Shown here: in pieces, positions 16,277 to 54,294 of the stretch | How positions within the stretch are numbered: the first letter of the stretch is position 1 | Layout of the letters: every line of letters begins with the position of its first letter | Assembly (NCBI GenBank): GCA_016841425.1 | Contig: JAENZE010000011.1 | Location: 1-54,294, forward strand | DNA: 54,294 nucleotides | Reading direction: 5' to 3' | Source: Syntrophomonas sp. | GTDB lineage: Bacteria > Bacillota > Syntrophomonadia > Syntrophomonadales > Syntrophomonadaceae | Notes under the pieces: generated by a model | Seen by the model: only the letters and a program-made list of their open reading frames with translations | Database searches by the model: none | What the model was told of the DNA's origin: nothing | Translations under genes and position numbers: made by a program

Positions 16277-16509
16277 AAAAAACACCTCCTCTGTATGCAA
16301 AATATGCTTGTCAACTCCAATTTATTACTGCCTGGCATAAGAAAAGGTGAAAAATGGATATAAAAATGTGACTTTAGATAAAGGAAACCAAATTGCTCTG
16401 AAGATTTATATTAAACACTTCCTGATCCCCCCAGAAAAAATTTCATTTAGAAGAATTATAACCTAATATTGACTCTCCTATCATAAAAATAGAGTATATC
16501 ATTGAAGGG

Positions 16510-16585
16510 GGTGAACCATGGGGACGGTTCTTGCGGTTTGGTAAACCAAGCAAGGAAACCGCAAGAACCGTCCCCATGGTTCACC
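16510..16585. repeat. 30-bp perfect inverted repeat with GGGGACGGTTCT core
   Basis: Arms 16510-16539 and 16556-16585 are perfectly complementary over 30 bp, with a 16-nt loop. The core GGGGACGGTTCT is shared with the REP elements at 32206, 38537, 39496 and 43396, but the ends differ (GGTGAACCAT...). It lies 20 bp before the ZIP transporter start, inside its likely leader, so it may affect its expression. Confidence 0.9.
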
Positions 16586-16605
16586 TGACAGGAGAGGGAT
16601 AAAAT

Positions 16606-32205: not shown

Positions 32206-32293
32206 TGCGACAGGGGACGGTTCTCAATTTGTCGCATTATTAGTATTAAATATTAAATAAAATGCGACAAATTGAGAACCGTCCCCTGTCGCA
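32206..32293. repeat. REPIN: two REP units in inverted orientation
   Basis: Unit TGCGACAGGGGACGGTTCTC... (32206-32236) and its inverted copy (32263-32293), 31 nt each, form a perfect inverted repeat with a 26-nt AT-rich loop. Each unit itself begins TGCGACA and ends TGTCGCA. The left end follows the stop codon of the sigma-54 activator without a gap. An extra CTGTCGCA follows at 32294-32301. Confidence 0.92.
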
Positions 32294-33713: not shown

Positions 33714-34486
33714 TAAACGTTTCCCCCTCTAAAATAAACTTAAGAACATCACCGATACTTTTCGAAATTGGCAGTTTAAAATTACCAATTGACCAGTGAT
33801 GCTGACCAACCCTGGCCCCCAAAAACTTCGATAAATGTTTCTTATCACCTCCAATGATAAATATAAGTTAGACATCTCTACATTTGCTCCCGAAATTAGC
33901 TGTCATAATACTGAAAAAGATACGCTTCATTATGTAAATATGCATATGACACAGCGGAAACAAATTTTAATAATCAAGCTTCAAGTGTGGTGGTTAAGCA
34001 GTAACTTTCTTATTTATTTATAATCGTGATTTATGAGTAATAATCGTAGTATAAAAAACTTATGTTATTAATAGCGTTTGACAGGTTATATACAGTTCTG
34101 CAGCAAGATCCCAGAATCAAGGGCTAATAAGCGTAAAAAGCAGTAAATAGACAGAAAAACCAAGAAAAGACTTCCTAATAGCCATTTAACCTATTTTAAC
34201 ATTGATTTACAGCATATTCAATAAAGAAGCAAGGGCGAGGGAAGGAAGCAAGGGGACGTTCTTTTTGCTTCCTCCCTACTATAAAATGGTTGAGGAAGCA
34301 AAAAGAACGTCCCCTTGCTTCTTGTTTCCGATATTTGCCGGGCAGGGGAGGTGCAAAACTAAAAAATTTAATGTAGTATGTATGTTGGGTGTTTTTTATA
34401 TTCTCCCTTCTATATATAATTGCTAATTAGATCGGCTTGTAAACAAAATGTTCATAAATTACAATAATACAGGGGAAGGAGAAGAA
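33714..34486. other. Long intergenic region upstream of the CoA-transferase and ypmA
   Basis: 773 bp without a convincing gene. It contains an inverted pair AATTGG...CCAATT around 33767-33793 (possible operator before the CoA-transferase) and the long inverted repeat at 34245-34321. Short open frames here lack ribosome sites. I found no good -24/-12 (sigma-54) element with correct GG-N10-GC spacing. Confidence 0.5.
34245..34321. repeat. 30-bp perfect inverted repeat, GAAGCAAGGGGACGTTCT type
   Basis: Arms 34245-34274 and 34292-34321 are perfectly complementary, with a 17-nt loop. Each arm starts GAAGCAA and carries TTGCTTC near its end, so it copies the REP-unit architecture (7-nt terminal inverted repeat around a GGGGACGTTCT core) with different terminal bases. 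Confidence 0.9.
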
Positions 34487-38527: not shown

Positions 38528-38529
38528 AC

Positions 38530-38567
38530 GCGACAGCGCGACAGGGGACGGTTCTCTGGATGTCGCA
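38530..38567. repeat. Single REP unit upstream of the RAYT transposase
   Basis: A unit at 38537-38567 (GCGACAGGGGACGGTTCTC...TGTCGCA) preceded by the tail GCGACAG. It begins 2 nt after the stop of the EF-G-like gene and 140 bp before the transposase. No inverted partner is present. Confidence 0.88.
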
Positions 38568-38595
38568 CTCTCCTTTAATCTATGATTTTAACAAA

Positions 38596-38623
38596 AAGCC
38601 GCACATCTCGTTGCGGTTTTTTT
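38596..38623 (+). terminator. Intrinsic terminator of the EF-G-like gene
   Basis: AAGCCGCA...TGCGG followed by TTTTTTT (38617-38623). Confidence 0.75.
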
Positions 38624-38706
38624 GTGCGGTGGAAACAGGTTTTTCTTTTATCTAATCAACAAATTTGGTATAATTCTAGTCACATAACAAACAAAAGGTG
38701 GAAAAA

Positions 38707-39495
38707 ATGGCAAGATATGCAAGAAGGAAAAGCAGTAGCAAAATATACCACATTATGTTAAGAGGAATAAATCGTATGCTGGTTTTTCTTGATGACCATG
38801 ACAGGTATAGGTTTCTGGATACAATAGACAGGATGAAAAAAGAAGGGGAATATGAAATACTTGCCTACTGTCTTATGGGCAACCATGTTCATCTAATAAT
38901 GAAAGAGGGAAAAGACACCATTGAAATATCATTGAAGAGAATCGGTGTAAGTTATGCTTATTTCTTTAACAAAAAATATCACCGGGTAGGGCATGTGTTT
39001 CAGGATCGTTTTAGAAGTGAAGCCATTGAAGATGATAGCTACCTGATAGCAGCAGCCAGGTATATTCATAACAATCCGGTGAAGGCAGGCATGGTGGAAA
39101 GAGTTTGGGATTATCCATGGAGCAGCTACCATGATTACGTGAAGACCGGGCAGGCATCAGAAAAGGTAAACACTGAAATACTGTTGAGCATATTCTCGGA
39201 AGATGAAACCGTTGCTATAAGACTTTTTAAGGAGTACACAAATCAAACCTCAGAAGATAAATTTATTGATATCGATAATAATATTGAAAAGCCGGAAAAA
39301 CAGGTACTAAATCCAGTATTGATAGTAGAGGAATTATTGAAAAGCCATGGATACAAACTGGATGAAATTAGATACTTGGAGGATAAGAAAAAAAGGGACC
39401 AAACCTTAAGGGAGATTAAGGAGAAGTCCCCGCTGTCAGTCAGAGAATTGTCAAGGCTTCTTGGCATCAGCAAAGATATTATATACAGGGCATAA
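38707..39495 (+). CDS. REP-associated tyrosine transposase (RAYT, Y1/HUH family)
   Basis: 262 residues. The N-terminal domain has the Y1-transposase order: YHIMLRGINR, the HUH motif in GNHVHLIM (His60 and His62), then tyrosines in SYAYFFNKKYHRVGHVFQ, one of which is the nucleophile, and YIHNNPVKAG. The C-terminal ~100 residues include a helix-turn-helix-like segment (SVRELSRLLGISKDII) that may bind REP DNA. RAYTs are thought to mobilise REP/REPIN palindromes. Such units flank this gene: one upstream at 38537, and a full REPIN starting at the base after its stop. ATG at 38707 is 5 nt after AAAGGTGG; the in-frame GTG at 38698 overlaps that site. Confidence 0.92.
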   Translation: MARYARRKSSSKIYHIMLRGINRMLVFLDDHDRYRFLDTIDRMKKEGEYEILAYCLMGNHVHLIMKEGKDTIEISLKRIGVSYAYFFNKKYHRVGHVFQDRFRSEAIEDDSYLIAAARYIHNNPVKAGMVERVWDYPWSSYHDYVKTGQASEKVNTEILLSIFSEDETVAIRLFKEYTNQTSEDKFIDIDNNIEKPEKQVLNPVLIVEELLKSHGYKLDEIRYLEDKKKRDQTLREIKEKSPLSVRELSRLLGISKDIIYRA

Positions 39496-39574
39496 TGCGA
39501 CAGGGGACGGTTCTCGATCTGTCGCATATTTTAATAACATAAATGCGACAGATCGAGAACCGTCCCCTGTCGCA
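39496..39574. repeat. REPIN directly after the RAYT gene
   Basis: Units 39496-39526 and 39544-39574 in inverted orientation, extended by one complementary base pair, with a 15-nt loop. The unit differs from the 32206 copy mainly in the four bases after TTCTC (GATC against AATT). In both REPINs the change is present in both arms, so pairing is kept. It fills the space between two convergent stop codons. Confidence 0.93.
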
Positions 39575-42575: not shown

Positions 42576-42760
42576 TATCCAATCCTCCTGCTATTATTTC
42601 TGATTCAGAAATTCTTAACGATTACATTCTAGCATATTAACCTATGGAATATTGAAACAAGATATGCAAAAAAAGAAACAATTTATACCCATGTTGATGT
42701 TTTGGATTTTGGTAGAAGTCAGGTATGGCAAGGACATATCCAGGGGAGTCAATGGATAGA

Positions 42761-42925
42761 GGAGAATTCATTCTCCGCTAAAGGGCAGCATATGTCATAC
42801 ATCCGTAGAGGAGAATTCATTCTCCTGTAAAGGGCAGCATATATCGTACATCCGTCATTCTCCCCGTGTCAACCGCGAATAAATTCGCAGCTACTCTCCC
42901 AGGTAGGGGAGAATTCATTCTCCCC
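42761..42925. repeat. Hairpin-repeat cluster A
   Basis: GGAGAATTCATTCTCC at 42761-42776 and 42810-42825 (49-bp period, sharing the linker AAAGGGCAGCATAT...TACATCCGT). A half copy CATTCTCC lies at 42856-42863, and GGGGAGAATTCATTCTCCCC at 42906-42925. A related hairpin CGGAGAAT/ATTCTCTG lies at 43303-43320. The stem flanks differ between copies but stay complementary in the last full copy (GGGG/CCCC). Confidence 0.85.
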
Positions 42926-43395: not shown

Positions 43396-43434
43396 TGCGA
43401 CAAAACGAGAACCGTCCCCTGTCGCACTGTCGCA
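43396..43434. repeat. Single REP unit (inverted orientation) with tail
   Basis: TGCGACAAAACGAGAACCGT...CCCTGTCGCA at 43396-43426 followed by CTGTCGCA. This is the minus-strand form of the unit seen at 32206, 38537 and 39496. It lies about 110 bp before the orphan regulator. Confidence 0.88.
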
Positions 43435-47215: not shown

Positions 47216-47250
47216 TGATCTGCTAACTGAACCAAAATGGTAAAGCTGTA

Positions 47251-47770
47251 GAGGAGAATTCATTTTCCGAATATCAGAACCAGCAGGAGCAGGATACACA
47301 GCCGCCGTAGCAGAGAATTCATTCTCTGCTGAACCACACAACGGGAAAAAGAATTCATTCTCCGGTTCTATGACAGATGGAATTGATAAAAGATATCTAA
47401 AAAAATGGCTTAATTTTCCTATTTGTAATCGAGTTGTAACTCTGGCTTGCTATGATAGCTGCAGATACTAAACGGGGTAACGTAGATACTCCGGTAGATG
47501 AATCCATGGAAGACAGAGATAGGAATGGCAGCAAAGAATTCCTGGCACAGCTGCAGGCAGCAGAGGCATTATTCTCAGCGGAACTGCATAACAGGATACA
47601 ACATTCATAATAAGGCTGTAGAGGAGAATTTATTCTCCGGGTTGATCGGCTTATCGGGACCAGCAGCAGCAGGATATCGCAGCAGCCGTAGAGGAGAATT
47701 CATTCTCCGGCTTATCAGAACCAGCAGCAGGATATCGCAGCAGCCGTAGAGGAGAATTCATTCTCCGGCT
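47251..47770. repeat. Hairpin-repeat cluster B
   Basis: Copies of the GGAGAATTCATTCTCC hairpin begin at 47253 (one mismatch, TTTTCC), 47310 (GCAGAGAAT/ATTCTCTGC, changed on both arms), about 47348 (degenerate), 47623 (GAATTTATTC), 47693 and 47751. The last copies share a linker containing ACCAGCAGCAG, GGATATCGCAGCAGCCGTA and CTTATCAGA (58- and 70-bp spacing). This linker differs from those of clusters A and C. Confidence 0.85.
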
Positions 47771-54088: not shown

Positions 54089-54294
54089 ATTCTGTCGACT
54101 GTAGCGGAGAATTCATTCTCCGCCGCTATACAGATTGATGGAAAAAGGTAGAGGAGAATTCATTCTCCGCCGTTGTACAGATTGATGGAAAAAGGTAGAG
54201 GAGAATTCATTCTCCGCCGCTATACAGATTGATGGAAAAAGGTAGAGGAGAATTCATTCTCCGCCGTTGTACAGATTGATGGAAAAAGGTAGAG
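54079..54294. repeat. Hairpin-repeat cluster C: tandem array with 47-bp period
   Basis: A degenerate copy GGAGAATAAATTC (54080-54092) is followed by full copies starting at 54106, 54153, 54200 and 54247 with an exact 47-bp period, and the next begins at 54294, where the window ends. The linker is ACAGATTGATGGAAAAAGG. Copies alternate between CGCTAT and CGTTGT after the hairpin, giving a 94-bp higher-order unit. The first full copy has GCGGAGAAT/ATTCTCCGC, a 9-bp stem. Confidence 0.92.

Follow-up and report, generated by a model that had tools for sequence, protein, structure and literature searches.

The IS200/IS605 and TnpAREP enzymes, which belong to the HUH family, act on one DNA strand exposed at the replication fork, where a folded unit is bound and then cut by a tyrosine. 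In the main text of Di Nocera et al. 2013 (PMC3733652), RAYT-like genes with terminal inverted repeats (TIRs) were named TIRYTs; GGGGWSAS is a motif common to many of the TIRs, certain TIR families are scattered as singles, dimers or groups, and self-complementary TIRs also occur. That main text makes no mention of Firmicutes, Pelotomaculum, Desulfotomaculum or Syntrophomonas. Quentin et al. 2018 (PMC6006769) placed most TIRYTs in subclass 2.1, with HTH tails, and recovered no REP-like sequences near subclass 2.1 genes by automatic or manual search. For the REPINs of Pseudomonas, compensatory changes in the two arms were found to be common by Bertels and Rainey 2011 (PMC3116915), and Corneloup et al. 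2021 (PMC8266576) reported that loop bases are critical in the Sm and Mb REPtrons and that protein and REP co-evolve.

The window analysed here is a stretch of 54,294 nucleotides from Syntrophomonas sp. (contig JAENZE010000011.1), part of a 3.58 Mb genome in 27 contigs (G000; G001 and so on are the genomes of relatives, which are Syntrophomonadaceae, and L numbers are loci). A preliminary description of the window had proposed a RAYT transposase flanked by its likely REP substrates. The features of the window are as follows.

16508..16587, no strand assigned: inverted pair of a third stem family, stem AACCA, core GGGGACGGTTCT
32206..32293, no strand assigned: REPIN-like inverted pair of TGCGACA units, beginning one base past the stop of a sigma-54 activator gene
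34236..34330, no strand assigned: inverted pair of another stem family, stem GAAGCAA, core GGGGACGTTCTTT
38537..38567, plus strand: 5' hairpin unit (TIR), stem CGCGACA/TGTCGCA, core GGGGACGGTTCT, bulge CTGGA
38707..39495, plus strand: Y1 (HUH) transposase of TIRYT/RAYT type, 262 aa, with a C-terminal HTH-like helical extension at about 203-261
39496..39526, plus strand: arm 1 of the 3' inverted pair of hairpin units, directly adjoining the stop codon
39544..39574, minus strand: 3' hairpin unit, arm 2, the sole 3' unit in G003
43396..43426, minus strand: lone TGCGACA unit
42756-42923, 47248-47766 and 54101-54267: clusters of GTAG palindromes

The transposase gene was identified as such by PF01797 Y1_Tnp (4e-12 in a profile search) and by the NCBIfam model NF047646 REP_Tyr_transpos, which it passed at 85.6 bits against a cut-off of 80; the IS200 model NF033573 gave no match to the protein. 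The clear active-site residues noted in the preliminary description were borne out, as the HUH pair H60/H62 (HVH) and Y119 are invariant across 54 aligned relatives. An alternative GTG start at 38698 would give an ORF of 265 aa (38698-39495), and relatives align from the ATG at 38707. The AlphaFold2 model of the protein has a pLDDT of 91, and its closest PDB entry is 4er8 (E 2e-9), the E. coli TnpAREP with bound REP hairpin. Four helices modelled with high pLDDT make up the C-terminal extension at 203-261; Pfam HTH matches were weak (best 0.029 for the window protein and 2.4e-4 for one paralog), with none above the curated cut-off for the window protein. Because a TIR precedes the start, a TIR touches the stop and the C-terminus is HTH-like, the gene fits, by its sequence features, the TIRYT/subclass 2.1 branch. 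The Firmicute host, put forward earlier as a Gram-positive example, is indeed a Firmicute but nothing special: one scan returned at least 80 similar genes, nearly all from Firmicutes.

Of 60 relatives only G003 has an ortholog, which is syntenic and 85% identical, with dN/dS of 0.14 at dS 0.51; its protein is the one encoded on Syntrophomonas sp. B5_bin.5 contig JAENYG010000015.1. A 68% ortholog with an identical stem occurs in another family, the Tepidanaerobacteraceae (L048). As judged by sequence comparison, the window gene is vertically kept, single-copy and under purifying selection. An IS200/IS605 insertion sequence, for which multiple near-identical copies would be expected, was considered and rejected: the window gene is single-copy in its genome, and the nearest paralogs there are 38-44% identical.

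Searching the window for TGCGACA-N17-TGTCGCA with at most two mismatches (31 nt) recovered six units, at 32206+, 32263-, 38537+ (1 mismatch), 39496+, 39544- and 43396-, against 0.09 expected, and none of 100 shuffles reached six. The repeat anatomy given in the preliminary description thus holds throughout, from the 31-nt unit with 7-nt inverted repeats to its recurrence at 32206 and 43396, and the 32206 site is moreover a full inverted pair. The upstream unit, placed earlier at about 140 bp, ends 139 bp before the ATG at 38707 and lies at an equivalent position in the G003 and L048 orthologs. Downstream, the inverted pair described as starting one base past the stop does so, and 39496-39574 forms a perfect 32-bp inverted repeat. 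Arm 1 of this pair is absent from G003, and arm 2 is probably the older of the two, since G003 has it as its only 3' unit. Likewise, the 32206 pair is represented by one unit in G003 and by none in G001 or G002. As a separate observation, extra TGCGACA/CGCGACA copies stand in tandem at the outer edges of units at L014, L032, L034, L037 and window positions 38529-38545, and look as if units had inserted beside existing stems.

To describe the unit beyond this genome, 113 loci were drawn from many Firmicutes, using core motif patterns chosen after inspection. The core lies on both sides of the gene at 62 of these loci, and the usual placement is a 5' unit about 65 nt before the start and a 3' unit abutting the stop. 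Across the 185 units of the 113 loci the arms pair with a score of 5.16, compared with 3.04 (sd 0.06) when arms are swapped between loci. With one unit, picked blind to its stem, from each of 49 independent clusters set at 60% protein identity, the scores are 5.49 and 2.88, and a score of 5 is reached by 69% versus 9%. On these scores, the flanking repeat in 49 independent clusters is a hairpin whose loop (GGGGACGGTTCT and variants) is nearly constant and whose stem varies but stays self-complementary. Among 16 doublets, both arms have a matching variable bulge in 15 (permutation mean 1.8, maximum 7), and pairs fold at -43 kcal/mol with z about -17. No strand asymmetry of unit folding was detected, the two strands being about equally stable, so that the choice of strand, if there is one, would have to rest on the loop. 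A literature search for the core sequence itself returned nothing relevant.

The window set is one of seven gene/hairpin sets in its genome, which have the loop in common and a stem mostly their own. The genome has nine Y1 genes, seven of them long paralogs, each with inverted flanking units; these paralogs share the core GGGGACGGTTCT or close variants, while the sequences flanking the core differ from paralog to paralog and are complementary to each other. The resident stems are TGCGACA, ATATCAAG, GCCAACA, GTGGACA, AACCA, CCA/GGGCCA and AACA, the last (L047) being close to GCCAACA (L043), so the seven are not all unrelated. Stems of four resident genes are borne by 66 of the 100 core copies listed. 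The same genome also holds an orphan family with stem GGTGACA/GGGACA and core GGGGACGGTCCT (GGTCCT), with 14 listed copies, for which no cognate transposase was found in the genome.

Copy number was then compared across genomes. The genome-wide count proposed in the preliminary description gave about 30 copies: GACAGGGGACGGTTCT occurs 30 times, and its reversed control does not occur. Equal abundance of the unit in relatives lacking the gene, which that description named as the outcome that would speak against it, was not what we found. The exact TGCGACA unit is present in 29 copies here and 19 in G003, the two genomes with the cognate gene, and in none in 56 of the 59 relatives without it. 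Units without a detected gene occur in G017 (5; this genome is 89% complete and one of its contigs ends within a unit), G033 (1) and G040 (1). The GTGGACA unit behaves similarly, with 13 copies here and 10 in G001, which carries a 70% ortholog of the cognate gene, and none in 57 of 59 other genomes; G003 (4) and G023 (11; 67% complete) have units without a detected ortholog. No TGCGACA unit is present in G001 despite its 97 cores and its five other genes of the branch, so the presence of the stem family goes with that of its gene, not with that of the core. Over 61 genomes, core number and gene number are correlated (Spearman 0.67, and 0.68 within the family, with kinship ignored).

The history of single sites varies. 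The GAAGCAA pair at 34236-34330, for which no cognate gene was found in the genome, has a clean empty site in G003, G001 and G002, and so it moved or was lost, loss being possible in principle. A search for empty sites of TGCGACA units gave none that was clean, and at L013 and L039 the differences between G000/G003 and G001 are more complex. Most TGCGACA loci are common to G003 by descent, and the family therefore looks old and persistent, not bursting now. In G001 the window gene is absent and a decayed unit is left behind the EF-G gene. In G004, 3' of an EF-G gene, GATGACAATGGATGTTTCCTATTGTCATCTTTTATTTTT (L178:4330-4380) is apparently a decayed unit of another stem type followed by a T-run, and has perhaps been reused as a terminator. 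At L039:5453-5534 (G000:C20:58452-58533), an intergenic site before the start of a PHP-domain-like gene, G000 and G003 have TGCGACA units and G001 has a GTGGACA unit (G001:C37:102200-102218), as would result from an exchange of the stem or from separate insertions at a common hot spot.

We consider it probable that the locus is a TIRtron, in which a TIRYT-branch Y1/HUH transposase (RAYT group 1/subclass 2.1) lies between inverted copies of its own candidate substrate. This substrate would be a single-strand hairpin unit, with a 6-9 bp stem (TGCGACA/TGTCGCA) round the near-constant loop GGGGACGGTTCT plus a handful of variable bases; a pair of units in opposite orientations would be REPIN-like and fold into one long hairpin. 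By analogy with other HUH enzymes, the HUH domain may recognize the folded unit on lagging-strand ssDNA, with Y119 cutting and rejoining ssDNA, and units and pairs would spread into extragenic DNA, often directly after stop codons. The loop would act as a family-wide mark and the stem as the private mark of each transposase. For the window protein, we infer that it binds and cleaves the unit and is specific for its stem; the distribution of stem sequences makes stem-specific recognition by each transposase likely. A more speculative reading, which we rate as less likely than not, is that subclass 2.1 uses a two-part address, in which the constant loop would mark the family and the private stem would keep each enzyme/hairpin pair nearly independent, with up to seven sets per genome and sites at which one stem may in time replace another.

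If the locus were a classical RAYT with GTAG-tagged REPs in a new host, this would explain the match to REP_Tyr_transpos and the E. coli TnpAREP as closest structure. Of the proposal of a RAYT with REP substrates, the RAYT-type Y1 enzyme stands and the flanking repeats are very probably substrates, but these are not classical REPs: GTAG is found in the 12 nt 5' of the core in only 5 of 185 units. The protein is also long, with its HTH-like C-terminal extension, and separate GTAG units occur in the genome beside a different, short TnpAREP. The GTAG-tagged palindrome GTAG(A/C)GGAGAATTCATTCTCC has 19 pattern matches in the window versus 0.02 expected. The short TnpAREP gene, beyond the window end (G000:C20:54426-54905, minus strand, 159 aa, NF047646 112.7 bits), is flanked on both sides by such palindromes. 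The GTAG-REP family GTAGMGGAGAATTCATTCTCC and this gene are a true GTAG-REP set adjoining the locus, which the preliminary description overlooked, and provide an internal contrast to it; a classical RAYT at the window locus is thus improbable. We give a similarly low probability to the hairpins being transcription terminators or mRNA-end hairpins under selection, with an incidental gene association. The hairpins are long and stable, and of 18 TGCGACA elements taken from L009-L038, L039 and the window, 10 begin no more than 12 nt beyond a stop codon, four of these immediately behind it, and 0 of 18 are inside a verified gene. Against this, the units recur at set distances beside such genes across dozens of genomes, and their stem families follow the cognate gene and not the genome; one pair is an insertion/deletion polymorphism, and the T-runs 3' of the units are weak.

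The alternative that the transposase recognizes the shared loop only, with a stem that need only pair and is inherited by descent, is unlikely but deserves more weight. At orthologous genes the stem arms are not significantly better conserved than the adjacent spacer (5.85 versus 5.35 of 10 matches, p 0.19 in a crude test), so the gene-linked copies give no demonstration of stem-specific recognition, and at one site G001 has a GTGGACA unit in the position of the TGCGACA units of G000 and G003. Protein and stem similarity are correlated (Mantel r 0.27, 0 of 5000 permutations, three pairs being duplicate records); stems tend to be alike for proteins more than 70% identical but not for distant ones. 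Two observations speak against recognition of the loop alone: dispersed, unlinked copies carry stems that match resident genes, and each of two stem families goes with its own gene in a set of genomes in which the core is universal. It is very improbable that the units are an ordinary IS or MITE family mobilized by some unrelated DDE enzyme, with the Y1 gene as a passenger. Terminal inverted repeats and non-autonomous pairs are MITE-like, but the arrangement round the Y1 family recurs in the 49 independent clusters, every unit is itself a hairpin, and the Y1 gene is single-copy and under purifying selection.

The TIRtron reading bears on subclass 2.1 as a whole. Few groups of domesticated Y1 transposases are larger, and its DNA substrate was left open by the 2018 survey, which saw TIRs only. 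The hairpin of constant loop and changing stem is a defined candidate substrate for this subclass. Seven related enzymes and several stem families in one genome make a natural panel for how enzymes discriminate hairpins, and the same genome lets one ask whether REPs outlive their transposase.

Compared with the REPIN-RAYT systems of Pseudomonas (PMC3116915), the units described here are alike in forming extragenic inverted doublets that fold into hairpins, with less conserved spacers and singlets as remnants, and in the matching changes of their arms (15 of 16 pairs share the bulge). They differ in that the REPs there are of the RAYT-linked gamma-proteobacterial kind, whereas here copy number is far lower and several stem families occur per genome. 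The REPtrons of E. coli, S. maltophilia and Marinomonas (PMC8266576) likewise combine an HUH protein with a cognate hairpin, but have a GTAG tag and loops that are 3-4 nt or variable, while here there is no tag and the near-constant loop is 12-18 nt. With subclass 2.1/RAYT group 1 (PMC6006769) the window protein shares its length and C-terminal HTH-like extension; no REP-like sequences were found there, and here hairpin units flank most genes. The TIRYTs and TIRtrons (PMC3733652) are similar in having a Y1 gene between inverted repeats unrelated to GTAG REPs. Relative to the GGGGWSAS motif given in the main text of that study, the usual core of these units, GGGGACGG, departs at a single base (7 of 8 positions agree), and that of paralog L046 (GGGGACAG) matches at all positions; the general rule of a constant loop and a private, paired stem is not stated in that text. 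Relative to the studies considered here, the hairpin rule as a general one, its reach across Firmicutes and the dispersal of one stem per gene appear to be new.
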